Origin: Romanomermis culicivorax
Taxonomy: Eukaryota > Nematoda > Enoplea > Mermithida > Mermithidae
Assembly: GCA_963922205.1 (NCBI GenBank)
Contig: CAWUHX010000213.1
Location: 1 to 64,000 of the forward strand
DNA length: 64,000 nt
Direction of reading: 5' to 3'
Position numbers and translations under genes: made by a program. Below the pieces are notes generated by a model. That model saw only the letters and a list, made by a program, of their open reading frames with translations. It had not been told where the DNA came from and made no database searches. Shown in pieces: positions 28,440 through 64,000 of the stretch; the stretch's first letter is position 1; each line of letters opens with the position of its first letter.

Positions 28440-30960
28440 AAAAGAAAAAACAAAAAATGTAAAAACACAAAATATTCATAGAAGAAAAAAGCACAAAAAA
28501 TACAGTACAAAAAATTGAGACGAAATCAAAAAAAAAGAAAAAACAAAAATTGTAGATACTAGACAATACAACAAAGCACGAAAAAATGAAATACAAATAG
28601 AAATTCAGCTGTAATCAGAAGAAAAAAGAAAAAAGTAAAAAAACAACAGATATAACAGAAAAAAGCACCAAAAATGAAGTACAAACCAAAATTGAGATAA
28701 GATCAGAAGAAAAAACAAAAAATTCAGAAAACAAAATAGATATAACAGAAGAAACCATAAAAAATGAAATACAAATAGAAACTCAGCTAAAATCAGAAGA
28801 AAGAAAGGAAAAATGTAAAAAACAAAATACATATAACGGAAAAAAGCAAGAAAATGAAGTACAAATAGTCTTTCAGCTATAATCAGAAGAAAAAAGAAAA
28901 AAAGTAAAAAAACAACAAATATATATAACAGAAAAAAGCACAAGAAAATGAAGTACAAACCAAAATTGAGATAAAATCAGAAGAAAAAAATGAAAAATTC
29001 AGAAAACAAAATAGATATAACAGAAGAATACATAAAAAATGAAATACAAATAGAAATTAAGCTAAAATCAGCAGAAAGTAAAAAAAATGTAAAAAAAAAC
29101 AAAATATATATACTAGAAAAAAGCACAAAAAATGAAGTACATACCAAAATTGAGATAAAATCAGAAGAAAAAAATGAAAAATTCAGAAAACAAAATAGAT
29201 ATAACAGAAGAATACATAAAAAATGAAATACAAATAGAAATTAAGCTAAAATCAGCAGAAAGTAAAAAAAATGTAAAAAAAACAAAATATATATAATAGA
29301 AAAAAGCACAAAAAATGAAGTACATACCAAAATTGAGATAAAATCAGGAGAAAAAATGTAAAAATTCAGAAAAAAAAGATATAACAAAAGGATACATAAA
29401 AAATGAAATACAAATAGAAATTAAGCTAAAATCAGCAGAAAGAAAGAAAAAATGTAAAAAAACAAAATATATATATACTAGAAAAAAGCACAAAAAATGA
29501 AGTACATACCAAAATTGAGATAAAATCAGGAGAAAAAATGTAAAAATTCAGAAAAAAATAGATATAACAAAAGAATACATAAAAAATGAAATACAAATAG
29601 AAATTCAGCTGAAATCAGGAGGAAGAAAGGAAAATGTAAAAAAAAATACATTTAACGGAAAAAAGCATAAAAAATGAAGTACAAACAAAACATTGAGATA
29701 AAATCAGGAGAAAAGAATGAAAAATTCAGAAAACAAAATAGATATAACAGAAGAAAGCACAAAAAAATGAAATACAAATAGAAATTAAGCTAAAATCAGA
29801 AGGAGAAAAGAAAAAAAGTAAAAAAACAACAAATGTATATAACAGAACAAAGCACAAAAAATGTTTTACAAATCAAAATTGAGGTAAAATCAGGAGAAAA
29901 AATGTAAAAATTCAGAAAAAAATAGATATAACAGAAGAAAGCACAAAAAAATGAAATACAAATAGAAATTCAGCTAAAATCAGAAGAAAGAAAGGAAAAA
30001 TGTAAAAAAACAAAATACATATAACGGAAAAAAGCACAAAAAATAAAGTACAAAACAAAATTGAGATAAAATCAGGAGATAGAAAAATGAAAAATTCAGA
30101 AAACAAAATAGATATAACAGAAGAATACATAAAAAATGAAATACAAATAGAAATTCAGCTAAAATCAGGAGGAAGAAAGGAAAATGTAAAAAAAACAAAA
30201 TACATTTAACGGAAGAAACACAAAAAATGAAGTTCAAACCAAAATTGAGAGAAAATCAGGAGAAAAATGTGAAAATTCAGAAAAAATAGATATAAAAGAA
30301 GAAAGCACAAAAAATGAATTACAAATAGATATTCAGCCAAAATCAGAAGGAGAAAAGAAAAATGTAAGAAAACAAAATACATATAACGGGAAAAAGCACA
30401 AAAAATGAAGTACAAATAGTCTTTAAGCTATAATCAAAAGAAAAAAGAAAAAAGTAAAAAAACAACAAATATATATAACAGAAAAAAGCACAAAAAATGA
30501 AGTACAAACCTAAATTGAGATAAAATCAGAAGAAAAAAATGAAAAAAAACAAAATATGTACATGCAACAGAAAAAAGCACAAAAAAATAAAATGCATATA
30601 AAAATTGATAAAATTGAGACGAAATAAAATAAACAAAAAAATGTCTAAAAAAATAGACATTACAGAAAAAACATAAAAAAAGAAATAAACCAAATTGAGA
30701 TATAATCAAAAAAACAAAAATTGTAAAAAACAAGGCATACATAACACAAAAAAAACAAAAAATGAAGTACAAAGAAAAATCATAAAAATTGAGATATAAT
30801 AAAAAAACAAAAACTGTAAAAAACAAGGCATCCATAACACAAAAAAACAAAAAATGAAGTACAAAGAAAAATCTTAAAAGTGAGGTAAAATCAGAAGAAA
30901 ATAAAACAAAAAACAAACAAAAATTGCGGAAAACAAAATATATATAACAAAAAAATATAG
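28440..30960. repeat. A-rich satellite, period about 184 bp
   Basis: Tandem array in which AAAAAATGAAGTACAAACC and AAAAAATGAAATACAAATAG alternate about 92 bases apart, so each full unit is about 183-185 bp. The cleanest part runs from 28900 to 30500. The plus strand is strongly purine-rich and T-poor throughout. Long Phe/Leu-rich open frames on the minus strand are by-products. Confidence 0.9.
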
Positions 30961-31254: not shown

Positions 31255-34200
31255 TGTTAAAGGGTTTGACCAAACCCCAAACTTGGATTTTACTCCTGAT
31301 CCAAAATTAGACATGTTGGGTATCAATCGACAGATTTCGTCGCGATCTATTCAAAAACGTCTTTTAGAATCTTTTATTCCATTTTTTGACGCAGTTATAG
31401 CTTGTTGAAAATACATAAACTTTCCTGGAGCAATGTGCTGAGGGGTTTGACCAAACCCCACACTTGGATTTTTCTTCTGATCCAAAATTGAACGTGTTGG
31501 GTATCAATCGATAGGTCTCGCCGCGATCTATTCAAAAACGTATTTTAAAATGTTGTATCGTGATCTTTGACGGATTTATGGCTTGTTGAATATACATAAA
31601 TTTTGGTGCATCAGCTTGCTGAAAGGCTTGACCAAGCCTCAATAGGCATCGGAAATGGGGCGAATTCGGCACCAGTCGATAGATTTCGTCGAGATCTACT
31701 CAAAAACGTATTTTAAAAAGTTGCATCTCATTTTTGACGGATTTATGGTTTCTTGAAACTGCATGCATTTTGCAGCAGCAGTGTACATACAAATGCTTAA
31801 AGGTTTGACCAAACCCCGATAGTCATTTTTCGATCGGGAATCGGTCAAATTTGGCATCAATCGATAGATTTTGTCGAGATCTATTCAAAAACGTATTCAA
31901 AAATGTTTTATCTCAATTTTTGACGGATTTATGGCTTGCTGAAGTTGCATTAATTTAGATGCACCTGTGTTACATACCAATGCTGAAGGGTATGACCAAA
32001 CCCCAATAGGCTTTTTTTCGACTGAATATTGGGAAAATCGGGTACCAATCGATAGATTTCGTCGAGATCTATTCAAAAACGTACTTCAAAATGTTTTACC
32101 TCAATTTTTGACGGATTTATAGCTTGTCCAAGTTACATAAATTTGCTGCAGCAATGTGCATACCAATGCTTGAAGGGTTTGACCAAACCCCGAACCATAG
32201 ATTCATTATTTTTTCAAAACGGATTAAATTGGGTGTCAATCGATAGATCTTGTCGAGATCTATTCAGAAACGTATTTTAAAATGTTATAGCTTCTTGAAG
32301 CTAGATAAATTTCGCTGCAGCAGCATACATACCAATGCTGAAGGGTTTGACCAAACCCCAATAGAAATTATTTTATGAAATCGGAACATGTTGGATATCA
32401 ATCGATAGGTCGTTTTGGGATCTATTCAAAAACGTATTTTAAAATGTTGTATGTCAATTTTTGATGAAGTTATGGCTTGTTAAAAATACAATTTTACTGG
32501 ATTAGTGTGCTGAAGGGTTTGACCAAACCCCAATAGGCATTTTTTTAAATCGAAAATGAAACAAATTGTGTAACAATCAACAGATTCCGTCCAGATCTAC
32601 ACAAAAACGTAACTTAAAATGTTGTATTCCGAATTCTGACAGATTTATGGCTTGTTGAAGTTATATGAATTTTGCTGCAGCAGTATAATTAACAATGATG
32701 AAGGGCTTGACCAAACCTTGAACCGTCAATTTATTTTTTATCTAGAATGGAACGCATTGGATATTAATCGATAGATCTCGTTGATATCTATTCAAAAACG
32801 TATTTTAAAATACTGTATCTCAATTTTTGAGAGATTTATGGCTTGTTGAAGTTACATAAATTTTATGCAGTAGTGCACATACCCATGCTGAAGGGTTTGA
32901 TCAAACCCCCAGACCATCGATTTTTTTTTATCTAAAATAAAACGTATTGGGTATCAATCGATAGGTCTCGTCGGGATCTATTCAAAAACGTATTTTAAAA
33001 TACTGTATCTCAATTTTTGAGAGATTTATGGCTTGTTGAAGTTACATAAATTTTGCTGCAGTAGTGTACATACCCATGCTGAAGGGTTTGATCAAACCCC
33101 CAAACCATCAATTTACTTTTCCTTCTAAAATGGAACATATTGGGTATCAATCGATAGGTCTCGTCGGGATCTATTCAAAAACGTATTTTAAAATACTGTA
33201 TCTCAATTTTTGACGGATTTATTGCTTGTTGAAAATACATAAATTTTGCTGCAGTAGTGCACGTACCCATGCTGAAGGGTTTGATCAAACCCCAAACCAT
33301 CAATTTACTTTTTCATCTAAAATGGAACATATTGGGTATCAATCGATAGGTCTCGTCGGGATCTATTCAAAAACGTATTTTAAAATGACGCATCTCAATT
33401 TTTGAGAGATTTATGGCTTGTTGAAGTTACATAAATTTTGCTGCAGTAGTGCACATACCCATGCTGAAGGGTTTGATCAAACCCCAAACCATCAATTTAC
33501 TTTTTCATCTAAAATGGAACATATTGTATATCAATCGATAGGTCTCGTCGGGATCTATTCAAAAACGTATTTTAAAATACTGTATCTCAATTTTTGAGAG
33601 ATTTATAGCTACATAAATTCTGCTGCAGCAGTGTACATACCCATGCTGAAGGGTTTGATCAAACCCCCAAACCATCAGTCTACTTTTTCATCTAAAATGA
33701 AACATATTGGGTATCAATCGATAGGTCTCGTCGGGATCTATTCAAAAACGTATTTTAAAATACTGCATCTCAATTTTTGAGAGATTTATGGCTTGTTGAA
33801 GTTACATAAATTTTGCTGCAGTAGTGCACATACCCATGCTGAAGGGTTTGATCAAACCCCAAACCATCAATTTACTTTTTCATCTAAAATGGAACATATT
33901 GTATATCAATCGATAGGTCTCGTCGGGATCTATTCAAAAACGTATTTTAAAATACTGTATCTCAATTTTTGAGAGATTTATGGCTTGTTGAAGTTACATA
34001 AATTTTGCTGCAGTAGTGTACATACCCATGCTGAAGGGTTTGATCAAACCCCCAAACCATCAATTTACTTTTCCTTCTAAAATGGAACATATTGGGTATC
34101 AATCGATAGGTCTCGTCGGGATCTATTCAAAAACGTATTTTAAAATACTGTATCTCAATTTTTGACGGATTTATTGCTTGTTGAAAATACATAAATTTTG

Positions 34201-35420
34201 CTGCAGTAGTGCACGTACCCATGCTGAAGGGTTTGATCAAACCCCAAACCATCAATTTACTTTTTCATCTAAAATGGAACATATTGGGTATCAATCGATA
34301 GGTCTCGTCGGGATCTATTCAAAAACGTATTTTAAAATGACGCATCTCAATTTTTGAGAGATTTATGGCTTGTTGAAGTTACATAAATTTTGCTGCAGTA
34401 GTGCACATACCCATGCTGAAGGGTTTGATCAAACCCCAAACCATCAATTTACTTTTTCATCTAAAATGGAACATATTGTATATCAATCGATAGGTCTCGT
34501 CGGGATCTATTCAAAAACGTATTTTAAAATACTGTATCTCAATTTTTGAGAGATTTATAGCTACATAAATTCTGCTGCAGCAGTGTACATACCCATGCTG
34601 AAGGGTTTGATCAAACCCCCAAACCATCAGTCTACTTTTTCATCTAAAATGAAACATATTGGGTATCAATCGATAGGTCTCGTCGGGATCTATTCAAAAA
34701 CGTATTTTAAAATACTGCATCTCAATTTTTGAGAGATTTATGGCTTGTTGAAGTTACATAAATTTTGCTGCAGTAGTCTACGTACCCATGCTGGAGGGTT
34801 TGATCAAACCCCCAAACCATCAATTTATTTTTTCTTCTAAAATGGAACATATTGGGTATCAATCGATAGGTCTCGTCGGGATCTATTCAAAAACGTATTT
34901 TAAAATACTGTATCTCAATTTTTGAGAGATTTATAGCTTGTTGAAGTTACATAAATTTTGCTGCAGCAGTGTACATGCCTATGCTGAAAGGGTTTGATCA
35001 AACCCCCGAACCATCAATTTACTTTTTCATCTAAAATGAAACATATTGGGTATCAATCGATAGGTCTCGTCGGGATCTATTCAAAAACGTATTTTAAAAT
35101 ACTGTATCTCAATTTTTGACGGATTTATTGCTTGTTGAAAATACATAAATTTTGCTCGAGCAGTGTGGTGAAGGGTTTGACCAAACCCCGATAAACTTTT
35201 TTTTGATCGAAAATAGGAGAAATTGGGTACCAATCGATAGATTTCGTCGAGATTTACACAAAAACGTAATTTAAAATATTTTGTTTTGACTTTTCACGCA
35301 TCAATATCTCTTTAAGTTCACATAAATGTTGATGCATCAGTTTGAATACCAATTCTGAAAAGTTTGACCAAACCCCAGTGACCATTATATTTTCGATCAA
35401 AAACAACACATATCGGGTAT
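31255..35420. repeat. satellite, 23 units of about 186 bp
   Basis: Units contain GAAGGGTTTGAYCAAACCCC, GGGTATCAATCGATAGG, GGGATCTATTCAAAAACGTA, TTTTTGAGAGATTTATGGCT and TTTTGCTGCAGTAGTG. Outer units (31255-32880 and 35150-35420) are diverged; the central twelve are nearly identical. About 33050-33800 recurs at about 34000-34750 (offset near 952 bp, five units), a higher-order repeat. The central units carry the perfect palindrome GGGTTTGATCAAACCC. Confidence 0.95.
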
Positions 35421-37744: not shown

Positions 37745-39990
37745 GAGGTATAATGTATCTTATAACGTACAAAATATGTTATAACATATAAAAAAGTGTG
37801 GGAACATGTTATAACATAGGACTATGTCATAACATGTCTGTATATTATAATATGCCAAAAACAGAAACGTTGTTTCGTGTAATAACACAGGCTATGTTAT
37901 AGCATAGGGCTATGTTATAGCATGGGACTAATTTATAACATGGGACTTTTTAACTTGTGCAAATATGGGGAAAAAATTTTTGTGATGTTATAACATAGGA
38001 CCATATTATAACCTGTCGAAAAATGAAAAAAATGTGTATTTTATAGCATGGTACTTTACTTTAGGGCAAAGAGGTATAATGTATCTTATAACGTACAAAA
38101 TATGTTATAACATATAAAAAAGTGTGGGAACATGTTATAACATAGGACTATGTCATAACATGTCGGTATATTATAATATGTCAAAAACAGAAACGTTTTT
38201 TGTATAATCACATATAACTATGTTATAACATGTGACTATGTTTTAACATGTGAAAAAATATGGAAAAAATTTTTGCTATGTTATAACATAGAAGCACATT
38301 AAAAGATGTCATGCAATGAAAAAAAATTGTGTGTTATACCTTAGGATTATGTCATTGCATAGGGCCATCTTATAGCACGTCAGTATGTTTGGATCATGTT
38401 ATACCATTATGCGATACGATAACAGTGTATTATAACATGTTGGAAAATCAAAAAACTTCCTATGTATGTTATAGCATGGGACTACATAATACCATAGCTC
38501 GATGTTATTTGATGTCAGTATGTTATAACATGTCGGAAACAGAAAGTCTTTTTGTACAATAACCTACGACTATGTTATAGCATTAGACTTTGTCATAACA
38601 TGTGACTATGTTTTAACATGTGCAAAAAAGAGAAAAAAATATTTGTCATGTTATAACATAGGACCATATTATAACCTGTTGGAAAATGAAAAAATTTGTA
38701 TTTTATAGCACGGGACTATGTTATAACATGTCGCTATGTTGTGACATGTTGGAAAATTTGAAGAAAAATTTTGGTGTGTTAGAACATAGGACTATATAAT
38801 AACATAAGAAAATGTAAAAACGTGATACATGTTATATTTTGATCAAATAGGAGAAAAACAAATTTTGATATGCTGTAACATAGAAACATTTTTATAACAT
38901 GTCGAAAAATGAAAAAATTTCTTCACCATAGGGTTATGTCATTGTATAGGATTATAAGATGTCATTATGATATACCACGTGGAAAAATAAAAAAATGTAT
39001 ATTACAACACAGGGTCATATTATACTATGGGGCAATGTTATAAGTATGTTATTGCATGTGGAAAAAATTTTTTTGTATGTAATAACATAGGATCTTGTTA
39101 TAGCATCCTGTTGTACAATATCAGTGTATAATAACTTGTTGGAAATTCGAACAACTTTTATTGTATGTTATAACATAGGACTATGTATTACTGAAGAACT
39201 ATGTTAAAAGATGTCAGCGTACTATAATGTGCAGGAAGAAGAAATTTTGTATGTTATAACATAGGGCTATATTATACAATGGGAATATGTTATGCGATGT
39301 ATGTATGTTGTAAAATTTTGTCAAATGGAAAAATTTTTTTGTTTCTCATAACATGATAGCATGTTATACCATAGGATTATGTGATAGTGTGTTGGTGACA
39401 GAAAAAATTTTTTTTGTATGGTATTGCTTCTGACTATGTTATAGCATAGTACTATTTAGTTAGATGTCATGATGGTACAACTTCTTGGGAAATGAAAAAA
39501 AGTTATATGCTATAACATATGACCATGTTCAAACATACAGGTGTTTTGTAACGTGTCAAAAAATGAGAAAAAGAAACAAATTTTTGGTGAGCATGTTATA
39601 ACATAGGTCTATGTTATATGGTATCATGTTATAACACAGGACTATGTTATAATATGACACCATGTTATAAAACAGGTCTATGCTATAACATAGTATTTCT
39701 TGTAACATATTGAAAAATTGGAAAAAAATTAATTTTTATGTCTTATATAACAGGATTATGTTATAACATATCAGTATGTTATAACTTTCAACATGTATGT
39801 TAAGATTTTTGTATATTATAGCATGTGGAAAAATAAAAAAAATTGTGTGTTGCAACACAGGACAATGTTGCATCATAGGGCTATTTTATACCAAAGGCAA
39901 TGTTATAAGATGTCAGTAAGTTATTGCGGTCGTCATGTTATAACATGTCAGTGTGTTATAATATGTTGAATAATGGGAAAAATTAGATAT
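37745..39990. repeat. palindromic ATGTTATAACAT array (array 1)
   Basis: Dozens of copies of the self-complementary ATGTTATAACAT and near variants (ATGTTATAGCAT, ATGTCATAACAT) at 20-40 base spacing, often as GGACTATGTTATAACATG. 37744-37865 is repeated almost exactly at 38064-38190. No genes. Confidence 0.9.
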
Positions 39991-48334: not shown

Positions 48335-49240
48335 ATGTTGTAGCATAAGGCTATGTTATAATACGTGGCTTCGAATATAGGAAATTTTTGAAAAAAAACT
48401 TTTTTATGCCATAGGGCTATGTTATAGCATTTAGCGTTATACTGTACCTGCATTCAATGTAGCATGTTTATATGTTGCTGTATATGGCATTAAGGTCATA
48501 TTTTGCTTCAAAAAGTATATCTGTTAACATAATGTGTGTTGTGACAAATATAACATGACATAGGTTATAACAACATGGGACTGATGATGATGACTGATAC
48601 CCTATGTTATAACATGGGATATGTTATAACACAGAGTATGTCAAAACAAGGGGTATACTATAACATGCATATGCTTTAATCTAGTATATGTCATGATGAG
48701 TGACATGTTATAACACCGATTATGTTAATACAGGTGATATGTCATAACACACGTCATGTTATACCATGTCAAATCTCTTAATAACATACACTATGTTATA
48801 AAACACCTCGTGTTATAACATACCCAGTGTTTACCTACCCATTTTGTAACATACATTGTGTGATAACATACCATGTGTTATAACATAGCTCCTAATGTAT
48901 CCCATGTTTTCCAATCCTTCCATGTTATAACATATCCTGTGTTATAACATAGCTCCCAATGTTTTAATGCATCCAATGTTTTACAATCCTCCCACTTTAT
49001 AACAGATCCTGAGTTACAACATAGCTCCTCATATTATAATCTATAACATGTTATACCATCCTCCCATATTATAAGATACTCAGTTGTAACATGCCCCATT
49101 TTTCAACATGTTATGTGTTATAACATAGTATATGTTGTAAATGTTATTACATGGTGCATAGCATTGTATATAATATAACTTATAGTATATTACAACATAG
49201 TATTTTTTATTACATGGTATGAACATATAACACATTTTAC
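48335..49240. repeat. palindromic ATGTTATAACAT array (array 2)
   Basis: Second, more degenerate block of the motif at 37745-39990, for example CATGTTATAACATATCC and GTGTTATAACATAGCTCC. Ends against an inverted copy of dispersed repeat family 2. Confidence 0.85.
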
Positions 49241-49718: not shown

Positions 49719-50369
49719 TTTTTTTGATACAGTCATGATGATTTTTTTAAAGATACAGTCATGATGATTTTTTTGCAGGCAATATAATAACTTTGGATTT
49801 AAAAAAAATTTAGTTGTTGCAAACAAGTTGACAGATAACAAATAAAGTGCTGTTTTCGAATGGAATATAGTTCTCTATTCTGGTAGTGGTAACACATTTC
49901 TTCGATGTATCATTATAATCTGGACAACCTGATTACCAATTCAGATTTCTTTGATGAGATTTTTTGAATTCAAACTTTTGTCGCGACCATCTCATTAAAC
50001 ATCTTAATGTAGAAAAAGTTGTTCTCATATATTTAAACCACTGAAAATGATAAAATGTATGTACCTAAGCAATGATTCAATGATTTCAATAGCTTAGATT
50101 TTGGCTTGCAGCAATTTCCTTGAAGTTGAAAAAACCAGCATGTCACGACATCAATTTCAAACTGAAAATAGTCAAAAACTGCACAAACTGACTATACAAA
50201 TAAGCAGAATGAATTGAAAATTCTGTTTTTTTTTTTGCTTTGAAGAACAGTTAAAAAGCTCACTTATAATAATGTAGTAAAATACAGTAAGCTGATGAAG
50301 AAATGATTATTAATAAAAAGAATATGAAAGAATTTTATTATGGTAGAACATCTACATAAGTAAAAATAA
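49641..50369. other. 3' flank of the lectin-channel gene
   Basis: No other gene seen. On the minus strand AATAAA (50339-50334) lies about 31 bases after the channel stop codon and is the likely poly(A) signal. Confidence 0.5.
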
Positions 50370-51933
50370 TCAAGCAAGAATTTGCTTGTAAACAAAGTGA
50401 AGACAAAAACCGATTGCAATCATTGCTTCTGGTACAGAAATCATGTCAATACCCACTGCCAAGCCGCATATATTTGAAATGTCACCAAACAGTTGATATA
50501 TCTAATATTGGAAGAAAATAATGTTGTGTTATTCATAGAAAATCACTATAAACTCACTGAATATGATGCAATTTCGTTATAAGTCATCGACATTTCTGTG
50601 TAGTAGTATACGTATATCACAGAAGTATGTTTGGCATTGAAACAAGTCGCATTACTGTCATTTGGCTTCCTATTACACATTTGCTACAAAACAAAATTAT
50701 TCATGAAAATTGATGTATTAAAAAAGTTCTACAAACTTTCATCGATCGCATGTTCATCCTGGTTTTGGTGAAAAATTGCTTATACACAGTGGATCTAAAA
50801 ATTGATTAGATTATGAAAAGAAAACAGGAGTTATTGTTTGACCTACTGGCATTTAGGTGGGCATTCGCATGAATTTGCTTTATTCGGATAACAATTTTCA
50901 TGGTATGCTTCAATACATTCCTCTAGAATAATTTCCTTGTTTTGCTCCACATTTTTACTTACTAGCAAACTTACTCTGATGAATTAAACAAACAGTATCC
51001 ACATTTATACTCTCCCATGGATCAGTACAATTACAGAACTGCATCAGGTTACATTGTGAACATTGAATTTGACAGGCCTGGAAATACCCTATTAATACAT
51101 TTGACATGCATGCATGGACCTGATCTCACTTCTACGGAATAATCATGGTCTGCATTGCAGTACTGTGAGGAACGACTCTTCTTTTCATCGGTCTAGAAAT
51201 ATCTACAAAAGTTAACATGGCCAATGTAAAATCAAAAAATTATGTTAACCTGAAACAAGCTAATGTGAGTTACAAATCCTGGATCAACTTTACTGCCTAG
51301 AATATGTGGCAATGGTGTTTCATCTTGTTGAGTGATAAGGAGAGAAAATCCGACATCTTCGGAAGAACTTGTTAATTCGTTTTGGTCAATGGTAAGTATT
51401 AATTGTAAACCTGAAATATGAGCATGATAGTGTAAACCATTTTTTCCACTTTAAATTAAATATACCTTCAGATATCCCTGATCTGGTTTTAGTGACGGCA
51501 ACATCTGGTGCAGTTGTGGATGGGCCAATCTTGAAACAATTATTGTAAATTGGGTTGTGCAATAATGTGACGTTTCTAGAAAAGATTAGGTCATACTACA
51601 TGTTAATACATACAACATACTAACCTGAAACCATTATCGCAATCTAAGCGTCCAAATTTGCAATGAATGACCATATCTTGGAATGAATATCCCAAATTTG
51701 ACATTACGTCTGGTGTGAGCATAGAAAAAATATATGGGCTGAAATCTTTAACACGTCCATTGACAGCCAAGGAATTGGTTTCAATATTTGGGGTCTAAAA
51801 TCACATATATTTCCAATTAGGATACAAGAATATTGAACATTGAATATTACGTTCAACAAGTCCTCCATTTGGAACAATTTCAATTTTTCGCTTACTAGTA
51901 GAGCCTGGAACTGCACTGGTGGAATGTTAATTT
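50370..51933 (-). other. DEG/ENaC channel: extracellular domain and TM2 (ten exons)
   Basis: INIPPVQFQALLVSEKL may be a decayed FPAVTICN motif (51851-51933). Then DMVIHCKFGRLDC (51625-51794), YNNCFKIG and TRSGISEGLQLILTID (the G-L-x-L-x-L strand, 51466-51410), GSKVDPGFVTHI, QYCNADHDYSVE, ACQIQCSQCNLMQFCNC (50975-51077) and CECPPKCQSTVYKQ (50847-50794): the cysteine ladder of the thumb. SVIYVYYYTEM (50558-50683) leads to TM2, YQLFGDISNICGLAVG then IDMISVPEAMIAIGFCL (50370-50501). The family's G-x-S selectivity filter is G-I-D here (50453-50445), and the cytosolic tail is only about eight residues. These channels are trimeric, amiloride-sensitive, sodium-selective channels. Confidence 0.9.
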
Positions 51934-54900
51934 CTAAAAATTGAAAACTAAAATGCATATATTGTAATTATAAACTTTTTTGAATGTTACTGTCAAACAA
52001 CTCCTTGTCAATGGGTGATATGCTCAATTGTTGCTCATTCTTCAACAATTCGTGGAAACCTTGCACAGGGGGATAACTATTGTTATTTGGAAAACTCTTT
52101 GATGGTGTAGAATTTAATTTCGGGATTTCCCCAACATCAACTAAATATTCAATTCTATTTTGTTCAAGCTCCTCTTTGGAACTTTTCTTCTTCATTGAAT
52201 AAGTGGAAATTTTCCATGGTGGATCCAAAGCTATATTTTCCAGAATTTGGTCAGATGATATACTAAATGAATGAGTTACAGAGGATATTTCTACAGGAGC
52301 TTTTGGTTTATAAGTCAACCTTGCAATTGAAGTGTTTGAGGAAAGTTGTACACCATTCTGTGACAACTTAGATACTACATCTTTCACACTGTTCTGTTCA
52401 TGAATTGGATTAATTCTATTTTGTGTTCTTCCATCCACCGTATAATTTTTTTCAGTCCAGAAAGATTGTGTGATAACGTTTGATCTAGCAACTAATGATG
52501 AAACAATGATTTCAGCAGACTCCATTCTCAACGTAGATTTTTCCAGTGCAATCTGGCTTTTTGTGATAGGTGGTTGATCATTCAGGGTTGGTGATATATT
52601 TTTGTTCAGCATTTGGTCATTAGAATCCGACATTGATTTAACCTGTAATAAAGCAAATATTGCATGTATACCTTATTCACAACCTTACATAAACAACAAA
52701 CTTTTATTTACTTTTACAGACTGTGTATTCTCCACACTTTGTTGTAATCGAATTTCGGTTGCTTTTGGTCTTTCATCATTTGTCAATTTTTTGTTGATAT
52801 CATTGGTAACATTGAGCCATCTGTACTGGTTGCTGTTTGATGTTGTCTTAATTCTACTAGCTAAATTAAACATCAAGTAAGATCAGTTAAATGTGCAAAA
52901 TTCAATATGATATAAAATTGTAATAAAGGTTATAGAAGTAAAATCAAAATCAGTTTTACCTAAACTGTCAATCGGAGTAGTAATTTTCTCTACATTTCGA
53001 CCGGGTTGTGAAATCAATTGGTTTGTAGTCCTCTTCTGTATCAATTTATAGTCAACATTGTAAGGTATGGTTGTTCCTATGACATTGCTTTGCTCGATTT
53101 TCTCTGTATTTCTTTGTTGTGAATTTTCAGTAGCATATGTAAATTGACTATTTATTGCAGATGTTTGGGTAACAAAGTTTTGAAATTCTGGTACTGATTT
53201 TTTAGAAATTGAGTTGCTTTTTGAAGTGGAACCTGTAGTAATACTTGGGTTTCTAGAGTGCCTTGTAATATTGTATATTAGTTCTGTACTCATAGACAAA
53301 TAATGAGGTGAATTCAGAATCAAAGCTGAACTATAAATGTCATTAATGTATGGATTTTTCATATGATGAGTACCTATTGTCACGTATTCTGTTTTGAAAT
53401 TATTTGGGAATGTAAAGGACTGATTTCTCGGCATTTTCCTTGTTGCCATTCGCAAAGTATCTAGCTTTCTATCCAATGCTGTATATGCTGATTTGGATCC
53501 TATAAAAAATGACATCATTCTCTACATGTAATGTGGAATTACAGTAAAACTTACTGAGTTGAGCTGAGCTTGATTTGGATGCCAGTGTTGAAATATCCAT
53601 GTGTAACACTAGCATATCTGGACTATATGAAGATGTATTATTTGTTACCACTGTACTGCCAAGGGCTAGCACCCTTGTAGTAATTGAGATAACTTCCCTG
53701 GAAAAGGTACTTTTTTCTACTATTGGAGCACTTTGTTTCACAAATAATTCCATTTCATGTATTGACGGAATTGATAAAGAGGTAAGTGCACTTGTTGTTG
53801 TTAATGCATAGCTAGTTTCAAAATTATTTGTATAGTTTGTTTTATGGGGTGCATTCCATAGTGATGCTGTCATTTTTGGCATAGCCTTGTGTAATGTACC
53901 AGCACTAAAAGTACCTGGTGTTGAAGAAGAATTAACTTGAATTTGATAATTTTTCACTTTGGAATAGCTTTGTGTAGTGGTATGTTCCCCATGAATAGTG
54001 GTGGATAATGAATCTGCATCATTTCTAGTTGTGGTATCTGGATTTATTGCAATTGATGATTGGTTATTTTTAAAGAAAGTTTTGGTCATAACAAGTGTAT
54101 CATCTTCGACGTATTCAGCAAATGCATTATGACTAATAGAAAAGTAGCTATCAGTATGTAATAAACCAGTCAGGCTATTGAAAGTTGTTGCAACAAAGGT
54201 GTATGGAATTGATTTTTGAGTGATAATTGTCATGTATTGTATAGTTGCATTATTCCTTGTGGAGAATATCTCGGGAAGATTTGTGTAGAAATAAGATTCA
54301 GTAGTCTCTGATGTATTTTGCAAAACCTTGGTAGTAGATTGCATGACTGAGCTCTCCTGAAACCCAGTACCAACTGTTTGGGTAGGAAAAATATTTGTAC
54401 TAATACTCATAATAGAACTATAATATTGGGGAGAATCAGTATTTTCACTAAATGAACTTGTAATGTCTTTGTATTGAGAAGTAGTGGTACCTTCTGCTAT
54501 TAGAGTTGTTGTTTTATTGTCATACATTATAAATGTTGTATTAATAGCTTTTGTTATGGAGTCACTATGTTCAAGCATAGTTGCCAGATAAACACTTGTT
54601 GTTTCATCCTCAAGTTTGGTTACTGAAAGTGCTTCACTATTAAAATAGGGCATGTTTACTGTAGATACTACCAATGATGAACTATCAGTGATTTCCTGTT
54701 CCACTGACAATGTGGTAGTGGTTTGGTTTACTTGTGGTGTGCTGGAAGTTTCACTCTTAATGTCAATTATAGTTGAAATGCTTTCATCTACAGTATTTTG
54801 GGTAGTGATATTGATCACCGATTGACTATAAACTATTGTAGATATTTTTGTTGTAAAAATAGAATCAGTTGATAATGGTTGGGATGCTAAAGAAGTTATT

Positions 54901-57900
54901 AGTTCATTTGATGATTGTAATGATGTGCTTGCTGAGTTGAGCAGCAATACTGTTGTTCCAGAGTTGATATTGACGGTGTCTGAAACAAAAAAAATTCCAT
55001 TGAACTAAACCACCTACCCTTTAAAATTATCACAAATGAAGTTACATTAATAATACTGTTCCAAAATATCACAAAATTCTTAAGGAAAATATAGTGAGGT
55101 ATAAAGTAAAGAAAATTAATAAAAAATGGGACAGAGATTTAAACTGCACTGAAACTACAGTAAGTGCTGGTTACAATATACGATGCTTCATGATACATAT
55201 GACCATAGATGCACATTGTAGGTTTAGGGGAACTTGACCTACAGCTGATTTTAAGTGACTCTCAGCAGATTCCAACGCCAGCATTGATTATTAACATATT
55301 GAGGAAAATGAAGAAAAAGAAGAGAAGTACAATGTCACAGTTTATCAATGCTTTTGAAGGAAACATATTCTTGATTAAAAACAGTAACACTGAAACTTAA
55401 AAAATTATTGACCAAGTATGTAAAGCATTTTTGCAGGTTATGGCTTATCCAATTTTCTTCAAGTTTTTCAATGTGTAAGGTATATACAGCACATGGGTAT
55501 TAGCAATGTAGAATGTGCATGTATACACAATGTATAAGATAGGGTAAATGGATGTTACTGTAAAGATGACCAGTTGCCCCGAAGTAATGTAAACGGCTGT
55601 GTATTGCATGTAATTTACCTACTTAATTCTTACACACTGAAAGTTAGCCAGTGTACATTGCCTAGACATACATGATGTATATACCTTCTACGTTGAAAAA
55701 CTTGGAAAAAATTGATATACCATAAAGTGCATGAGTATCTTATATAGAAACTTATTTATATGGAACAATTTGCTGCTTGAATGTTGCAACACTTTTCTTT
55801 CTTCTTGTAATAAAGAAAGAAAAAATATCTATCCCAACCCCTGTCACGGCTGAACTCCAGCAGAAGTTCCATGCTGTGCATATGTGTTGAGGTACCACTT
55901 GTTGACCTGATCTTGGTGTAGATTGTACATATCAATGGAGCATGTTAAATTTTATCTTAGTTTCTTCAATAAAATAAAAATGATTATTTCAATTCACACA
56001 CTTGTGTTAACAAAAATGTTTCAAGAAAAAATGTTTTTTGTATTATTCTCAGACTATTGGGAAAAAAGTTGGATAAAGACCAAAATATGCATTTTTCAAA
56101 TTCACCAATGTGTGTATTGACAATTTACATGTGAGTGATATACAATAGATTAACTTTTTATATACAATACTTCTTACATAGTAACACAGTGAACTTCAAA
56201 CAAATTGAATTAATATGCTAACTTTATAAACGTTAGTTAGGACCATGCTATTCTACATTATACAATTCATACTTGTGAAGTTTTACTGTAGAAAAAAGCA
56301 CATACTTGTCATTACGTTAGTATTTCTAGTGCTCAAAACTTGCATAATTTCAGTTCCAACTGGCAAAGATGGTATTGACATGGTGACTTAAAAAAATGTG
56401 CAATAAACATATAAATTCTTCATCATGAGGTTTTTCAAACCATATCAGAAGCACTGGTGGACTCTATGGTACCAAAAAAATTTTCACCAGTATTTCTTAC
56501 CTAATTGATCGGATGATGTAAGGACTACAGTTTCGCTTTGTGCATTAGATGACACCAATTTAGTTGTAGATATGACTGAAAGGATACATTTTCAAACCAT
56601 TCCAAAGCTGACAAATAAACTACCTTGCTTAGTATCTTTTGCTGTAATTGTTGATGATGATACGAGCGCTGATGTAATGACCATAGTTGAACTCTCAGTG
56701 TATGACTCGACAGTCCTGGTTATAGGTATACTAACAACAAAGCTTGAATATTTTACGTCCATTCCAGAACTAGAAGTTGGAATTTGATGCGACTCTGCGG
56801 CTAGAAAGTATGGAACAGCAAGAATGTATGGCAAAATAAGCATGTATTGCATACATAAAACTCAATGAATAAAATTATATGGACAAGTGACTATTGCTAA
56901 AAAATCATGGTGATAGAGTTTTAATATGGCAAGTCCTCCTGAAAATCTATTTCAAGACCATTATTGACCAAAAAATTAACTTTTCATTGCAAACCAGTGA
57001 GTCAGCTATATTTAAATAAAAAAATCATCTTTGAAAGCTTCGTGGTTAACATACCTTGAGTACCAGTAGACAAGGTACTGATTGATAACCTAACAATCAA
57101 AGAACTTGAGTATACACATGTTGCCCTTGTATCCAAACTAGTGGTAATACTCGGATTAGGTGGAGTAGCTTGAAAAATCAATGTTAATTCAAACCATGAC
57201 CAATTTAATCCACAGAAAATGTGAGTTGAAAATTTGTAAATAAGTTGTCCTTACTTGTTTTCAGACTGATGCCCGTTCCAGTTGTTATCCAACTACTGAT
57301 AGCAGAAATGGTAAATGATGAAGGCAGAGTGGAGGTTGTTGCTAAAAATAATTTAAATGAGAAATAACACAACTTAATAACACTCAATAATGTCTCATAC
57401 TGTTCCATAGCATATAATGTGTTTGATATGAATGAAATTACATGTCTTGATTGCAGTTCTGGGAGTCATTACTAGTGTTGAAGGGCTTTCTGGGTGGGGC
57501 CATAGCTGTCCCACCATTGGCCAATGTCAGGGTAGGTGTAGCCATCCCGAACAGGGCTCAACAAAAATGGCCGGGTTCGGGACTTGTGGATTGGCTAAAA
57601 CATCAATCCTACAGCTAGAATTTTGGTTGTTTCCGTACAACACTAGAATAATGAACTTGGAACAAATTTTTGCATATCTTACATAATAGTAAAATCTGTT
57701 TTGACACATAACCCTCTGTTTACGCATATACTTGTGTTGATAATGATTGTTTCACAAAGGGAGTCTAATTAATAGAAAATATACCAGACTTAGAATTTAT
57801 CAGACAGAATAATTCAAGTCAATCATACCTATGGCTTACTTCTCTTGGAGCTAGATGAACTTTCATCATACATGGTTGCAAATGTAGAAGCAGATGAATA

Positions 57901-60900
57901 AAGTGAGTCATTTGTACCTGAATCCATTCCAAAGGATGTGTGAAGTAACATTGTGGTATAATTTATATTGAATATTTAAAAATGTTCAAAATGCTATAAC
58001 AGAAATAGTTTGTACATCTACTGTGTAAGTGTAATTTAACCAGTAGACGCGACACTTTTAATAGCATTGTTTGAAGGTGTAGGTACAAAGAATGATGGAA
58101 GTAACTGTAACATGTAGGAGAATTTGATGACTATGATGGTTTAATACATACTTGGAGAAGTTGACAAGCGACTTATTGATAATGTAACAATTAAAGAACT
58201 TGAGTATACCATTGTTGCTGCTGTTTCAAAACTACTTGGACTAGTTGGAGTAGCTAGATAATTGAACATACATTTAAACAGTGGTAAACTCAGCAGTCAG
58301 AGACGTCTCAAATATTCAGGGAAAACTTTTTGACAATGACTCACCTGTTGTTTGAATCGAAGACTCTTTTTTCACACTTGTAATATCTGTTGCAGAATGT
58401 GTAGATGTCCATTGTGACGTATAGGTATCTAAATTTGTATAAAATATTCTGGGCAAACTTCACAAATTCAGTGGATGAAATGATGCAATCCATAACAATG
58501 CAAATGATATTAAACCACAATAATTTACTTCTATTAAAATTTGGATACACCTCCAGCTTACTTTTTGTAGAACTCGGAGGTGATGCACTGGAACTTTGCC
58601 CGGACATTGTAGAAAATGTGGAAGTCAATGAATAATGCAATTGTGTTGTGGCTAAATTAATTTAAAGTACAAGTGACATTTATATCACTAGTTTACATTA
58701 AATACATAGAAATGTTTAAAATGTCAGAACAGAAACATTTCATACATCTATAGCCTACTTGTAATGTAACCAAGTGACATTGTCCCAACACTTCTAATCC
58801 CATTGGTTAAAGGTGTAGATATTGAAAATGGTATATTTGGAGTAACTGTAACATGTAGACAATCTTGTAAGAAGATAACATATAAGCACTCATTTATACA
58901 GGTAGAAGACTACCCTGCATCTGACCCTATATGACAGTGAATAATGCAGCTAGCATAATAAAACTTTTTGGTCTTGTTGCTTAATGTAAAGCAATTTAAA
59001 GTATAAAGTTTGAGAGTTCCATAAGTTTATAATTTATGCATTACTGAACCCTTATAGCTAACGAATCTTCACTGAAAAGTGCCCTAAAACAATAAAGTAA
59101 TGTTATTTTTTTTAATTTTTGCTTTTTAAAAAATTTTCTAAATATGTTAAATATCCTTGGAGCCACATTGAAAGAAATGTTTTTCTCTATCTACAGGGAA
59201 TTTAAGAATGTTTTCAACACATATGACATGGGAGATTAAGGCACTCAGTTATTGCTTACTTGTTACATAATTGGAAAATGTTTTACCAGTACTTCCATAG
59301 GACAATGTAGAAATTGTTTCTGTTGATGAATAAGATGAGCCATACGTAGCTGAATCAGTTAAAAGTGTACATGGCATTTAGCAGAATCAGGTTCCTATAT
59401 ACTTTTAATAAACTCACATTTATTGTATATCAAAAAACTGTTCAGAATGCAATAGTGGAAATTGTTCACACATTGATTGCTTACTTGTTACAGAACCAAA
59501 AAAGGTTGTCGCTATTTTTTCACTGGCTTCAATTGATACTGTAGATGTTGGTGATGGTGTATACATGACTGAAGTTACTGAATAGTCGCTGGTTCTAGTT
59601 GAAGTTGTAGATGTTGAGAATGGAGTATGAGTAAGTGAACTAGCTAAAACAATTACATAATGTAAAGCAGCTAAGAAACGTTCAACGCCTAGTTATGTGT
59701 CATTATGGCACATAGTCACTATTTGATAATATGATCATCACAGATATCATGATAGAGTAGGGAATTCACTATTCACTTGTTGTGTATATGGTAATGTTGA
59801 CATGGTTTCCTCACTGGACACAGTTGAAGTTATTTTCACAGATGAATAGTACGAGATATTTGAATTCGATAATATTATGCATAACAGGCATGTTATAGAT
59901 GCCATAACTTTCTAAGGAAAATTTTTTATGATCATTATACTAGTTTACATGCATTGATGAAAAAAAGTTGCAAAAAAACAGAACTGTCACCAAAGTCTTT
60001 CAAATGAAGTGTTTATTATAAAAATTTCCATCAAAAAATTAATTATCATATGTTTTTTGATTTTGCTCACCAATTTCAAATCTTATTTGAGATGTGCTTT
60101 GGCGTAAAATTCTAAAAAAATGACGTAGTACTTTCTTTCCCATCTTTTTTCACCTGCAGTGAAACAAAAACATACAATATTCTATTGCTTACCTATTACG
60201 GAATTGTACAATGTTGTCGCTGCACTTTCAGTTCTCATAGTTGCAGTTGTTGATGTTGATAATGGCATATTTGTAGCTAAAATAAGTGCATTCAGGTCAT
60301 AGATTTTATCTGGTTGAGAAAATTTGGACACCTATGCACTGATTTTTATGGCTTTATATCAAGTATTTGAGAATATTTTCAAAATATATGATATAGTAGA
60401 CTAAGCTATTCAAATATGCCTCACTTGTTTTGTAAGTAGGAAATGTTGTACTAAAACTTCCACTTGATCTAGAGTCAGTTGTTGCATCTGATGAAGTATA
60501 TGAGGCATATGAAGCTGAATTGATTAAAACAGTGTATGACTTTTATATTGTGACAATTTTTGCAGTCTGATGAGTAGATTTTCTGTATCATTATCATAAA
60601 ATTGCAATCAATAAAATGATTTCAGGGAGATGATTTTTCATATAAAAGTCAGTTTAAATAAGCATCAAATAATCATTTTTCCGCATGTGATTTTCATCAA
60701 ATTGAGTTTTCAAATTGTGCACATTGTTTTGACTTTTAGACTTTCGTTTAGAGGCATTTTAGACTAGGGTGTCAACAGAATTTAGGTTCAGTTTGTTAAA
60801 TAGCCTGTTTCTTTTTCTTCTTTCTATTGGAACAATAAAATGTATATGTTTTTGATAGAAAAGTACTTTTTATACTGTTTTTGGAGTGTGTTTATTTCAT

Positions 60901-63820
60901 TTAAACTATGTTGTAGATATTTGAGGTAATACCTTTTTGATCAGATGATTTTGGACTGCAATAACACTGAATTAGATTAAACTGAGTTTCAAGTCAGTTT
61001 GATGTATACCTCAGTTTGATAAACCCTCTTGCAGAAAATCAATGAACACTTATAAAAGTGGTATGATTGAAATCACACATGCATCCATTGCGTACACTTT
61101 AGATGTTGTCTCTAAACTTACATCAAATACTCTTTCAAGCAATATTATACACTATGAATTCACATCAGCTTGGAGTTGTCTGATGACAACCTAATTTAAT
61201 GCACATTAAACTAAATTAAATTATGGAACTACCATACAACTAACTTCCATTAGGGCATATAAGTTGGCAAACAATGAATAAAGTTGTATTTTCACAGGTT
61301 GCACTGCGCCACATTAAGTCGTCGAGAAAATTTATAGTGACGCATTGTTTGGAGGAATTGTTGAAATCTGGTTCACCGGGAAACCACTTCGAATAGGTTA
61401 TTGACACATTTTTGAACAAGTAACCTTTAGTGAGTTCATTACGGTAAATGTTAAGTGGTATATCCCAATTTAGGTAACGTGGTGGGGCAAGGCCTGTAGA
61501 GCTGAAGTGAAGAAGCATGGTTACAAATATAATACCCTCATGGTTATATGAACTCTAAAATTTGAATCAAAACTAGAACACAAAATTCTCTCAGCATAAT
61601 GATCTTAGCAACTAAAAATGTTTTAGTGGTCAGACTATTCTAGGCAATTCAGGTAGGCATTTTATGAATCAGCTGAAAAAATTTCATGTATTTTTTTACT
61701 ATGGGTGGTGCAACTCTTACCTAAATAGCAATTTCATATTTGTTGTGTAGGCTCCCAAAGGGTCCAATGGTAAAGTAGCATTAGGATGAATCTTACGACA
61801 GGCAGCCAGTGCTTGGGAAATGCTATTGTACAAAGTGGAGAAATTATAGTAATAGTAGAATCCTGCTATTTTGATCCATGGAGCTGGGCAACCTTGAAAA
61901 AAATAATCATCATGAAATATTAGACATGTTCAACTCTGGATTTTTGTATCAGAAAATCAGAGCAAACAATCAGGGGATGAACAAGTTAAATTCAAAGTCA
62001 ATTAATAATTATCACAAAATTGTTTGTTCAGAGATTTCAAATCAATATCTCCTGAATAAAAAACTAGTTGTACTTGCCAGTATATATTGCAACCTTGAAA
62101 CATATACAAGGATTAAAGTATTCGAGTGGAGTGGAGTCACCATCATATAACCAAGATTGGGTGACAAGTAGAAGTGAATGTTTACCCCCAACTGGTCTTT
62201 AATGCCACTAGAGACTTCATGACTACAAGGGTCTTTAGGGCCACTGACATCCATACAGCCTCCAAGGTCCTTATTGCCACTGCTTTCTTTACTGTTACTG
62301 GGGTCTATGTTAGCCAAAGTCAACATCCCTGCTGAAGATACACTTGATGATTCATACACCTACCAACCTGTCTTTAGTGCCACTAGAGACTTCACGATCA
62401 TTAGGGTCTTTGTGCCCACTTAGGCCCCAACAGCTACCAAAGTAATCACTGCCACCAGTACCTTTACATTTACTGGGGCCATTCACTAGAAACATTGCAC
62501 ATCCCTGCAGATAATGCTTTAAAGTGCAATTGAGGTAATGTTGTGACCAAATTCTTGATAAGCACGCAAAGTATTCAATTGGAATGGATAGTTTATAGAT
62601 AAAGATTTAAATTTAAATACACAATTAAGAAGTGTCATATAGAAAAATTGAGGGTATAATCAGATGTTGCATAATGATAAAATTTTTACAGTATGAACAT
62701 CCCAGATTCTACAGAGGACGAATTTTTTCTGAAATTAAAGACCCTGGTGGTGATAAAGACATTGGTTGGGGTGATGTGTTTGCACATGCACATCATGTTG
62801 GTCCATGTGCATATAGTTTTTAGACATTTTGTCAACTATTCATTCATCCCCATTTGTCTCCTTTCGTCCAATTTGTCTTCCTTTTCATCCTTATTTACCA
62901 TTGTTGTGTGTATGAAGAAATTATGCTAATCAACCAGCATAGATACCTCTTCTACTACATTGTCTGTGAGGGCTGCCAGTAGAGGATAAACCTACTGACT
63001 CACACAACAGGTGGCAAAGACTCCAGTGGAGGTAAAGGCTGTGCTGGTAGTAAGAAACCAAGTGGCAGGCAAGGACTGGGTGGTGACAAAGACTCCGGGA
63101 TTCTTGATCACATGACATTGGTTGGCTCAGCCCCATTCCTATACTGTATACCCTAATATTGAACCAAATAGGGGCCAGGAGTACTAGTTCTGGACATATT
63201 GTTTGAAAGTAGCAGAAGAAGAACAAGGATTTACTTCCACTAGTTGGTTTAGTTTGTGAATCATAAAGCGGCTTTTGCTCAACAGGTGGCAGACTGCTGA
63301 CATTATAAATGTGACAATATATATAGGCCGTGTTGTAACAAGATTCGTCATTGGCTGCAGATGTTGATGAAAATTGAACGCATGAAGAAACTTTGTTAAG
63401 ACTTTTTCCTTTCCCATTTGGTTCACCATTGCTCCACAAGTTGGCACTGAATGGAGCAGTTTGACGCCCCGAACTTGTTGGCATAAACCAATAGTACGAT
63501 GATGCCTGGATACTACTTTGGTTCCTGTAGGCTCCCAGCCAATAAGGCCCAGAATGACCTCTGGAAGATTGATTGAGAAATTGGCTAAAACAGATATGAT
63601 GAATGCAAGATTGAATATTCGACTATTGTAGTCTATTACCCAAGTTCAATCAAATCTGTTCCATTCTCCAAGTCTGGAAGATAAATCAAATGTGCTCTTT
63701 TGTCATTTGACTGGCATTTGGTCAGGGCATTGGAGAATCCAAGTCGTAAAACTGTTATCACTCTGAAACATCCCGGAAACTTCTTCGAAGGTCCTGCGAG
63801 CCATTTAGATGGGCACATGG
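50370..63820 (-). CDS. C-type lectin / Ser-Thr-rich / DEG-ENaC channel fusion gene (5' end off window)
   Basis: Thirty-two exons, about 2070 codons. From the 5' side: 63640-63820, 63235-63584, 61721-61892, 61245-61501, 60425-60514, 60193-60276, 59485-59643, 59260-59349, 58759-58845, 58562-58651, 58345-58428, 58152-58253, 57840-57917, 57255-57341, 57055-57168, 56624-56800, 56501-56575, 56306-56386, 53555-54979, 52960-53499, 52712-52860, 51976-52642, 51851-51933, 51625-51794, 51466-51575, 51250-51410, 51130-51192, 50975-51077, 50847-50922, 50737-50794, 50558-50683, 50370-50501. Every junction is GT-AG and every exon length fits the neighbouring phases. Domains: two C-type lectin domains, a long Ser/Thr-rich part, then a DEG/ENaC extracellular domain and TM2. 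TM1 and the start are not in the window. Degenerated exons occur near 59773-59880 and 58035-58110. It could still be two genes if an unseen end and start lie between the segments. Confidence 0.7.
51976..54979 (-). other. large Ser/Thr-rich exons linking stalk to channel
   Basis: Exon 53555-54979 (475 codons) is open throughout and very rich in Ser, Thr, Val and Ile with many N-x-S/T sites (NNTSSYS, NTTFIMYDNKTTT). Exons 52960-53499, 52712-52860 and 51976-52642 follow, becoming less Ser/Thr-rich and more mixed (for example KKKSSKEELEQNRIEYLVDV). No membrane helix is visible in any of them. A 1.3-kb intron (54980-56305) without recognised content separates them from the short exons. Confidence 0.85.
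56306..60514 (-). other. Ser/Thr-rich exon array, 14 intact short exons
   Basis: All fourteen exons have lengths divisible by three and begin in the same phase, so any of them can be gained, lost or skipped without shifting the frame. They fall into recurring types: SYTSSDATTDS (60425) with TYGSSYSSTETIS (59260); NMPLSTSTTATM (60193) with PFSTSTTSTRTS (59485); SSLIVTLSISRLSTS (58152) with SSLIVRLSISTLSTG (57055). Composition is dominated by Ser, Thr, Ala and Pro with few cysteines, as in O-glycosylated stalks. At 59773-59880 an exon-like copy lacks an acceptor AG, and at 58035-58110 another has lost frame and donor: decayed duplicates. Confidence 0.8.
57477..57640 (-). repeat. TGTTGTATGG-family repeat in an intron
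   Basis: Inverted single unit of the family at 859 and 18223: TGTTGAAGGGCTTTCTGGGT, CCACCATTGGCCAATGTCAG, AGGGCTCAACAAAAATGGCC, ending near CCGTACAACA. It sits in the intron between the exons at 57255-57341 and 57840-57917. Confidence 0.8.
61245..61892 (-). other. C-type lectin domain 2 (two exons)
   Basis: Exon 61721-61892 gives CPAPWIKIAGFYYYYNF, then SISQALAACRKIHPNA. Exon 61245-61501 gives APPRYLNWDIPLN, YSKWFPGEPDFNNSS, QCVTINF, MWRSATC and TLFIVCQ. The motif is EPD rather than EPN. The final cysteine set is complete (QCV, ATC, VCQ). Donor GTAAGAG at 61720 and acceptor CTTCAG at 61502 are clean. The intron between the two lectin domains (61893-63234) contains a minisatellite and an LTR-like repeat. 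Confidence 0.92.
61893..63234. repeat. intron with minisatellite and LTR-like repeat
   Basis: Two blocks (about 62195-62330 and 62370-62480) share GTCTTTARTGCCACTAGAGA and further GTCTTTAGG-GCCACT phrases, about 178 bases apart. Complementary GGTGGTGATAAAGAC / GGTGGCAAAGACTCC phrases flank the LTR-like repeat at 62774-62992. So one minisatellite appears to have been split by the insertion. Open frames across it (SGNKD/SGPKD) are repeat-borne. Confidence 0.6.
62774..62992 (+). mobile_element. LTR-like repeat, copy b
   Basis: Resembles 9952-10197 (GCACATGCACAT, AATTATGCTAATCAACCAG, GGCTGCCAGTAGAGGATAAA). Precise ends and target duplication are not clear. Confidence 0.5.
63235..63820 (-). other. 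C-type lectin domain 1 (two exons)
   Basis: Exon 63640-63820 gives CPSKW, PGCFRV, then FSNALTKCQ, the usual start of a C-type lectin domain (C-x2-W, CY/F, A-x3-C). Exon 63235-63584 continues PYWLGAYRN (the W-x-G strand), YYWFMPTSSG and LWSNGEPNGKG, then SSCVQF, DESCYN and YIYCHIY. The EPN tripeptide is the calcium/sugar site motif of mannose-type lectins. The partner WND motif is absent, so binding is uncertain. The domain ends about eight codons after YNVSSLPP at a GTAAAT donor (63234). A possible upstream exon (63865-63962) is in frame on paper but its junction does not fit. Confidence 0.9.
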
Positions 63821-64000
63821 CTGAAAGCAAAAATGTATTGAATGTACCATTCAAATTTCCCTGTACATTAGTAGTTATCGAAGCTGCATGCCAAGCCCAA
63901 TTTGCTCTTGATTTTTCAACATTAATCAAAATTGTAGTCATCAGACAATGTAGTTGTGTCATGATGATTTGTTCACTAGTTAGTTTGCAAGCAAAAAAAT

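Follow-up and report, generated by a model that had tools for sequence, protein, structure and literature searches.

A nematode gene predicted to encode a surface lectin with a mucin-like stalk and a truncated DEG/ENaC anchor

Introduction

C-type lectins bind sugars in a Ca2+-dependent manner through EPN/QPD and WND motifs, and paired C-type lectin domains (CTLDs) occur in secreted nematode CLEC proteins. The DEG/ENaC sodium channels form a separate family, in which the nearest named precedent for extra modules on the ASC domain is the EGAS group. C. elegans EGAS-1 to -4 combine EGF with an ASC domain and reportedly gave no currents above control in oocytes (PMC10424705). The same paper reports that deletion of the GAS belt abolished the currents of the C. 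elegans family members DEL-9 and UNC-105h, and that the HG motif before TM1 contacts the GAS belt and is said to stabilise the pore (PMC10424705). Here we describe a locus at which CTLDs, Ser/Thr-rich exons and a DEG/ENaC module follow one another on one strand, and we compare it with these systems.

Results

The window analysed in this study is a stretch of DNA comprising bases 1-64000 of contig C213 (648 kb), and the genome searched with it consists of 359 Mb in 595 contigs. This genome contains 38 matches to PF01060 (TTR-52), a family restricted to nematodes, against none in 14 control genomes; the weak Sre chemoreceptor match in the window (E 3.8e-4) agrees with this, and the source organism is accordingly treated as a nematode. 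On the minus strand, from 63820 to 50370, 32 exons can be spliced into a single frame of 2067 aa, with AG at all acceptors, GT at all internal donors, every phase consistent and the first stop at 50370 (Table 1). This confirms the original prediction, made from the window alone, of 32 minus-strand GT-AG exons with fitting phases, and the boundaries that it gave for the exons 61501-61245 and 51077-50975 are exactly those found here. The product runs from two CTLDs through Ser/Thr-rich cassettes and a linker into the DEG/ENaC part, and only one stretch of its 2067 aa has a mean hydropathy above 1.4, at TM2. A Viterbi chain, with a codon table partly trained on eight of the 32 exons, returned identical boundaries for 29/32 exons and differed at one boundary in each of the other 3/32. 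The chain itself contains 53 exons, i.e. 21 beyond the curated model, which are mostly tiny and probably spurious; it overcalls small exons and was dropped as a gene model, so the curated 32-exon model is used throughout. Exons 1-2, exons 3-4, each of exons 5-18, exon 19 and exon 20 are modules that start and finish in phase 1 and could therefore be easily shuffled or multiplied. Since the lectin, Ser/Thr-rich and first long exons are all of class 1-1, however, agreement of phase is weak evidence for their joining.

Table 1. Features of the gene and of other parts of the window
Feature	Positions	Strand	Basis or remark
Signal-peptide-like start (MTQLHCLMTTILINVEKSRA...)	63821..63962	minus	ATG at 63962; aligned with the C213 upstream copy and C223
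Exon 1, CTLD1 first half	63640..63820	minus	Splice model; PF00059
Exon 2, CTLD1 second half, EPN and ND motif residues	63235..63584	minus	
Exon 3, CTLD2 first half	61721..61892	minus	Mannose receptor match
Exon 4, CTLD2 second half, EPD, no WND	61245..61501	minus	
Exons 5-18, fourteen small class 1-1 Ser/Thr-rich cassettes	56306..60514	minus	
Cassettes 1-5	60514-60425, 60276-60193, 59643-59485, 59349-59260, 58845-58759	minus	
Cassettes 6-10	58651-58562, 58428-58345, 58253-58152, 57917-57840, 57341-57255	minus	
Cassettes 11-14	57168-57055, 56800-56624, 56575-56501, 56386-56306	minus	
Exon 19, 1425 nt, Ser/Thr-rich, class 1-1	53555..54979	minus	
Exons 20-22, linker	53499-52960, 52860-52712, 52642-51991	minus	Block 51991..53499
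Exons 23-31, DEG/ENaC extracellular part	50558..51933	minus	PF00858; ASIC2 match
Exons 23-27	51933-51851, 51794-51625, 51575-51466, 51410-51250, 51192-51130	minus	
Exons 28-31	51077-50975, 50922-50847, 50794-50737, 50683-50558	minus	
Exon 32, TM2 with GID replacing the GAS belt, very short tail, stop	50370..50501	minus	
ATG and hydrophobic segment MASITCLLCIILSNSNIS... running into a degraded Ser/Thr cassette	59905-59770	minus	Ends in phase 1
CTLD2 second-exon fragment with stops	49813-49980	minus	36.7% identity; 0.4 kb behind the channel stop
Sre-type chemoreceptor-like frame	4869-5363	minus	Neighbouring frames to 6529; E 3.8e-4, under the Pfam cut-off
Reverse-transcriptase fragment	10977-11474	plus	E 6e-4, under the cut-off
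tRNA	12987-13060	minus	35.4 bits; sole Rfam match in the window
Satellite-like tandem arrays	32285-35156 and 28573-30872		Units of about 192 and 184 bp
Runs of 17-18-bp units	37756-39693 and 48603-49147		Palindromic core TATGTTATAACATA; flanking a repeat-rich stretch

Both domain types expected by the original prediction are detected with Pfam. CTLD1 matches Lectin_C (PF00059) at 24.9 bits, over the cut-off of 22.6, and the channel part matches ASC (PF00858) at 132.9 bits along profile positions 130-451 of 455. CTLD2 scores 19.0 bits against PF00059, under the cut-off, and matches the macrophage mannose receptor (E 1.1e-5). In CTLD1 the residues EPN and ND align to those of collectin-11, a weak match (E 0.087), and the sugar-site positions of CTLD2 read EPD and WRS, with WND absent. 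The window product lacks profile positions 1-129 of PF00858, which cover TM1 and the beginning of the ectodomain. The channel part matches ASIC2 with E 8.2e-20, and the alignment with ASIC2 TM2 sets GID of the window TM2 (GDISNICGLAVGIDMISVPEAMIAIG) against GAS. All five copies read, namely the window, C393, C391 and two on C223 that are nearly identical, carry GID instead of GAS. In pairs of TM2 paralogs dN is smaller than dS wherever nonsynonymous differences exist, over only 34 codons. By homology, the window gene is a DEG/ENaC derivative. The DEG/ENaC family is large in this genome, with at least 96 PF00858 matches (93 of 388 candidates scored), many of them in long open frames with few or no stops.

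The Ser/Thr-rich region was compared with two controls. Between 55000 and 61240 the minus strand has 11 strict stand-alone Ser/Thr-rich exons of class 1-1 and the plus strand none. The mean was 0.01 (maximum 1) over 100 dinucleotide shuffles and 0.09 (maximum 1) over 54 stretches taken elsewhere on the contig, which places the cassette region far beyond chance. Serine and threonine together account for 35-49 per 100 residues in residues 301-1000. Three exon pairs, each with its flanking intron, are 70-72% alike, suggesting that the cassette array grew through tandem exon copying. A further sequence at 58117-57959 on the minus strand, outside the 32-exon model, is a 71% copy of the exon 58845-58759 and looks frameshifted, which suggests that exons of the array are born and die. 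EGF-type cysteines were not found in the stalk, where residues 401-1700 contain one cysteine, and the Pfam scan of the CTLD and ASC pieces gave no EGF match.

The original prediction pictures a channel whose TM1 and TM2 are separated by a large insertion, with TM1 to be sought by extending upstream of 64000. We built a TM1 profile from 16 regions (15 from this genome and one from ASIC1) and ran it over open frames of at least 15 aa on both strands of C213:1-203000. A leave-one-out control ranked 16/16 TM1s first, with E values no higher than 2.4e-10. In C213:1-203000 the lowest E value was 0.06, in a search of open frames of this length that a split or far diverged TM1 would escape, and with the 16/16 control this speaks against a TM1 further upstream within C213:1-203000. 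The best match, m59911_59750 (E 0.06), sits between Ser/Thr-rich exons and was rejected, its second half being read as a degraded Ser/Thr cassette. Plain tblastn with whole ASC open frames returned mostly noise and repeats.

Instead, homologous hydrophobic, signal-peptide-like starts are read from the sequence directly before CTLD1 in four copies. Those of the C213 upstream copy (at 85188, MIRLNYLLITILINVQKSRC) and of C393 (MIQLDFLVITVLIQIQKSRC) end in the donor GTGAGT; that of C223 (at 74138, MIHLDFLCILSATILINIEKLRF) has the donor GTATGT and is followed by a Ser/Thr-rich class 1-1 exon before CTLD1. In the window, an 8-base alignment gap removes the splice donor that the upstream copy has, so that the frame from 63962 runs across what was an intron and on into CTLD1; a product from this start would have 2115 aa. 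When the C213 upstream copy was used as a DNA query, the C393 start was recovered; the window and C223 starts were not found at E up to 1 and rest on reading of the sequence. With no TM1 found in C213:1-203000, signal-peptide-like starts in four copies and GID in 5/5, an insertion between two transmembrane segments is no longer the best description of this gene.

The upstream copy occupies C213:85188-65880 and consists of the signal-peptide-like exon, CTLD1, CTLD2 and one Ser/Thr-rich exon. Its lectin exons, at about 85031, 84787, 84281 and 67844, are all open, a Ser/Thr-rich class 1-1 exon lies near 65966, and it has no channel exons of its own. The two exons of its CTLD2 are separated by 16 kb that include repeats and GC-rich sequence. 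Compared with the window lectin set, dN/dS is 0.36 over the four exons (0.20 to 0.64 by exon). Since the window start has lost its donor and the upstream set is open, the gene may start at 85188 with four CTLDs across a 16-kb intron, or at 63962 with two. Two other segments near the gene deserve mention (Table 1). The CTLD2 fragment at 49813-49980 is probably the relic of another tandem copy, and the segment at 59905-59770 is a possible alternative first exon without lectins, or a product of chance.

Searches of the genome gave 57 matches to the channel part, 66 to the lectin part and 15 to the linker. Manual grouping gave 13 channel and 32 lectin clusters. At 5/13 channel clusters (the window on C213, C223 copy 2, C393, C205 and C431) a lectin cluster lies 7.0-12.7 kb upstream on the same strand; the binomial tail, roughly estimated, is 1.7e-13. 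Since tandem copies do not count as independent observations, the tail of 3.5e-5 obtained from the two distant loci alone (C205 and C431; about 31-47% identity) is the fairer figure. The remaining 8/13 channel loci have no lectin match in the 15 kb that precede them on their own strand; they comprise two more C223 copies, C391, another C393 fragment, two loci on C2 and one each on C50 and C126. The contig C391 begins about 20 kb upstream of its channel locus. No channel match accompanies the lectin clusters on C332, C280 and C537, the last of which lies near the contig end. On C393 and C223 copy 2 the linker separates lectin from channel, and in three copies without lectins (of which C223 copy 3 was read) it precedes the channel, its order being conserved on C393, C223 (3 copies) and C391. 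Order and strand are repeated elsewhere in the genome, and for this reason the sequence evidence favours one gene carrying the lectin, mucin-like and DEG/ENaC parts as the best reading, and this lends support to the single lectin-mucin-channel gene proposed originally. Elsewhere, on C50, weak CTLD matches form a large array at about 687-1043 kb, every one of them minus-strand, and a channel exon is weakly matched once, at 649 kb.

The strongest alternative is that two adjacent genes are present, i.e. a secreted two-CTLD lectin that stops after CTLD2 and a channel-like gene with a Ser/Thr-rich stalk and a start of its own. The donor of exon 4 in the window is GTTAGT, at phase 1, and the next codon if it is left unspliced is an in-frame TAG. 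Such a TAG lies right behind the CTLD2 donor in 6/10 copies read, which belong to a close family, and this makes a secreted two-CTLD lectin from read-through into the TAG possible. As described above, some channel loci lack lectins and some lectin loci lack channels, and a hydrophobic exon begins with an ATG near 59905 and finishes in phase 1 at 59770. However, GT at phase 1 ends CTLD2 in 10/10 copies, including the 4 that have no immediate TAG, so the splice position, rather than the stop, is the shared feature. On C393, CTLD2 is followed by two Ser/Thr-rich class 1-1 exons, the nearer one some 150 nt away, and no ATG opening a signal peptide into them was seen by eye in this ~150-nt gap. A Ser/Thr-rich class 1-1 exon stands between signal peptide and CTLD1 on C223, and order and strand are kept at five loci, two of them distant. 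An SL1 RNA search, which bears on whether operons are likely, gave no match, and its controls were equally silent. Taken together, we regard two separate genes as unlikely.

Discussion

The likeliest product of this locus, as judged from its sequence, would be a single-pass surface lectin with a mucin-like stalk and a truncated DEG/ENaC anchor. We consider it reasonably probable that one gene of a nematode family encodes such a large type I surface glycoprotein, acting as a receptor or tether; this explanation builds on the exon chain, the domain matches, the recurrence of the module order, the TM1 search in C213:1-203000 and GID in five copies. A putative signal peptide would take the place of TM1 and direct the protein into the secretory route. 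The two C-type lectin domains would stand furthest from the membrane and may bind glycans, and they would be raised by a stalk of multiplied Ser/Thr-rich cassette exons, probably O-glycosylated, together with the long linker. The membrane-proximal module would be the distal DEG/ENaC ectodomain, comprising the finger end, the thumb and part of the palm, and TM2 would be the sole membrane anchor. Provided that the parts are joined in RNA, the protein may bind glycans on cells, cuticle, matrix or microbes, and it presumably would not conduct. We prefer a receptor or tether to a channel acting alone, since the product has neither a GAS belt nor, as far as C213:1-203000 shows, TM1 with its preceding HG motif. 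With both the HG motif and the GAS belt missing, by analogy with the C. elegans channels, the window protein is unlikely to conduct alone.

A different role can be imagined if other subunits take part. A DEG/ENaC subunit may have become the base of a surface lectin that still docks in trimers with subunits bearing TM1, and glycans, or a pull on the lectins, would then gate a mixed channel with aspartates in its filter. The thumb and TM2 are kept, TM2 is little changed at nonsynonymous sites among paralogs, and many DEG/ENaC genes with TM1 exist in the genome, all of which would suit such a heteromer. On the other side, GAS has become GID in 5/5 copies, the amino-terminal part of the ectodomain is missing, and TM1 and the HG motif were not found in C213:1-203000. 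We give this heteromer only a small chance. The glycan-gated channel of the original prediction is thus unlikely for the protein alone, in view of GID and with no TM1 found in the searched region, and would be possible only if subunits that supply TM1 join it. The earlier view of an ordinary, full DEG/ENaC channel with a TM1 exon further upstream, either split or too diverged, fares worse. C213 does extend to 648 kb, past the 203 kb searched, and the search was confined to open frames of at least 15 aa; however, the 16/16 sensitivity of the TM1 model, the signal-peptide-like starts directly before CTLD1 in four copies and GID in TM2 all make it very improbable. Least probable of all is that the window gene is a decaying tandem copy, a young pseudogene of an intact family member, since the lost donor of the signal-peptide exon and the relic exons within and behind the gene are outweighed by 32/32 intact, in-frame exons and by dN/dS of 0.36 over all four exons between its lectin set and the upstream one.

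If transcripts confirm the single surface glycoprotein that we prefer, an ion-channel fold would have been put to new use at the membrane-proximal end of a lectin receptor, in which a signal peptide has replaced TM1 and the pore motif is altered yet conserved. Such a protein would provide a natural test of the function of thumb, palm and TM2 without TM1, and would add a channel-derived class to the nematode surface lectins. Were it joined to other subunits, it would offer a direct route from glycan recognition to ion flow. We suspect that automatic annotations of parasitic nematodes may already name a combination of lectin and channel of this kind. The original prediction knew of no described protein with this order, and we likewise found no lectin joined to a DEG/ENaC protein in the open-access literature, including the available portions of PMC10424705 and PMC9822975; subscription papers and preprints were outside the scope of this search. 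Such absence from the literature is weak evidence of novelty.

In comparison with known systems, the window protein shares parts with four of them. Its homology to ASIC and DEG/ENaC proteins, among which ASIC2 and then ASIC1 are the closest with a solved structure, extends from the finger end through thumb and palm to TM2. It differs from them by its signal-peptide-like start, GID in place of GAS, a very short tail, the lack of a TM1 in C213:1-203000 and the roughly 1700 additional residues, made up of lectin, stalk and linker, that precede the homologous part. Lacking two tested features of the family, TM1 and the GAS belt, it is not filed here as a DEG/ENaC channel. Like the EGAS proteins of C. 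elegans, it carries additional modules on the ASC domain, but lectin and Ser/Thr-rich modules replace the EGF repeats. With membrane mucins it shares a long Ser/Thr-rich stalk, for which O-glycosylation is predicted from composition, whereas its stalk is low in proline and its base is channel-derived. As in C-type lectins, CTLD1 passes the Pfam threshold and CTLD2 resembles the macrophage mannose receptor; unlike in those proteins, the membrane anchor and the membrane-proximal part appear to derive from a sodium-channel subunit.
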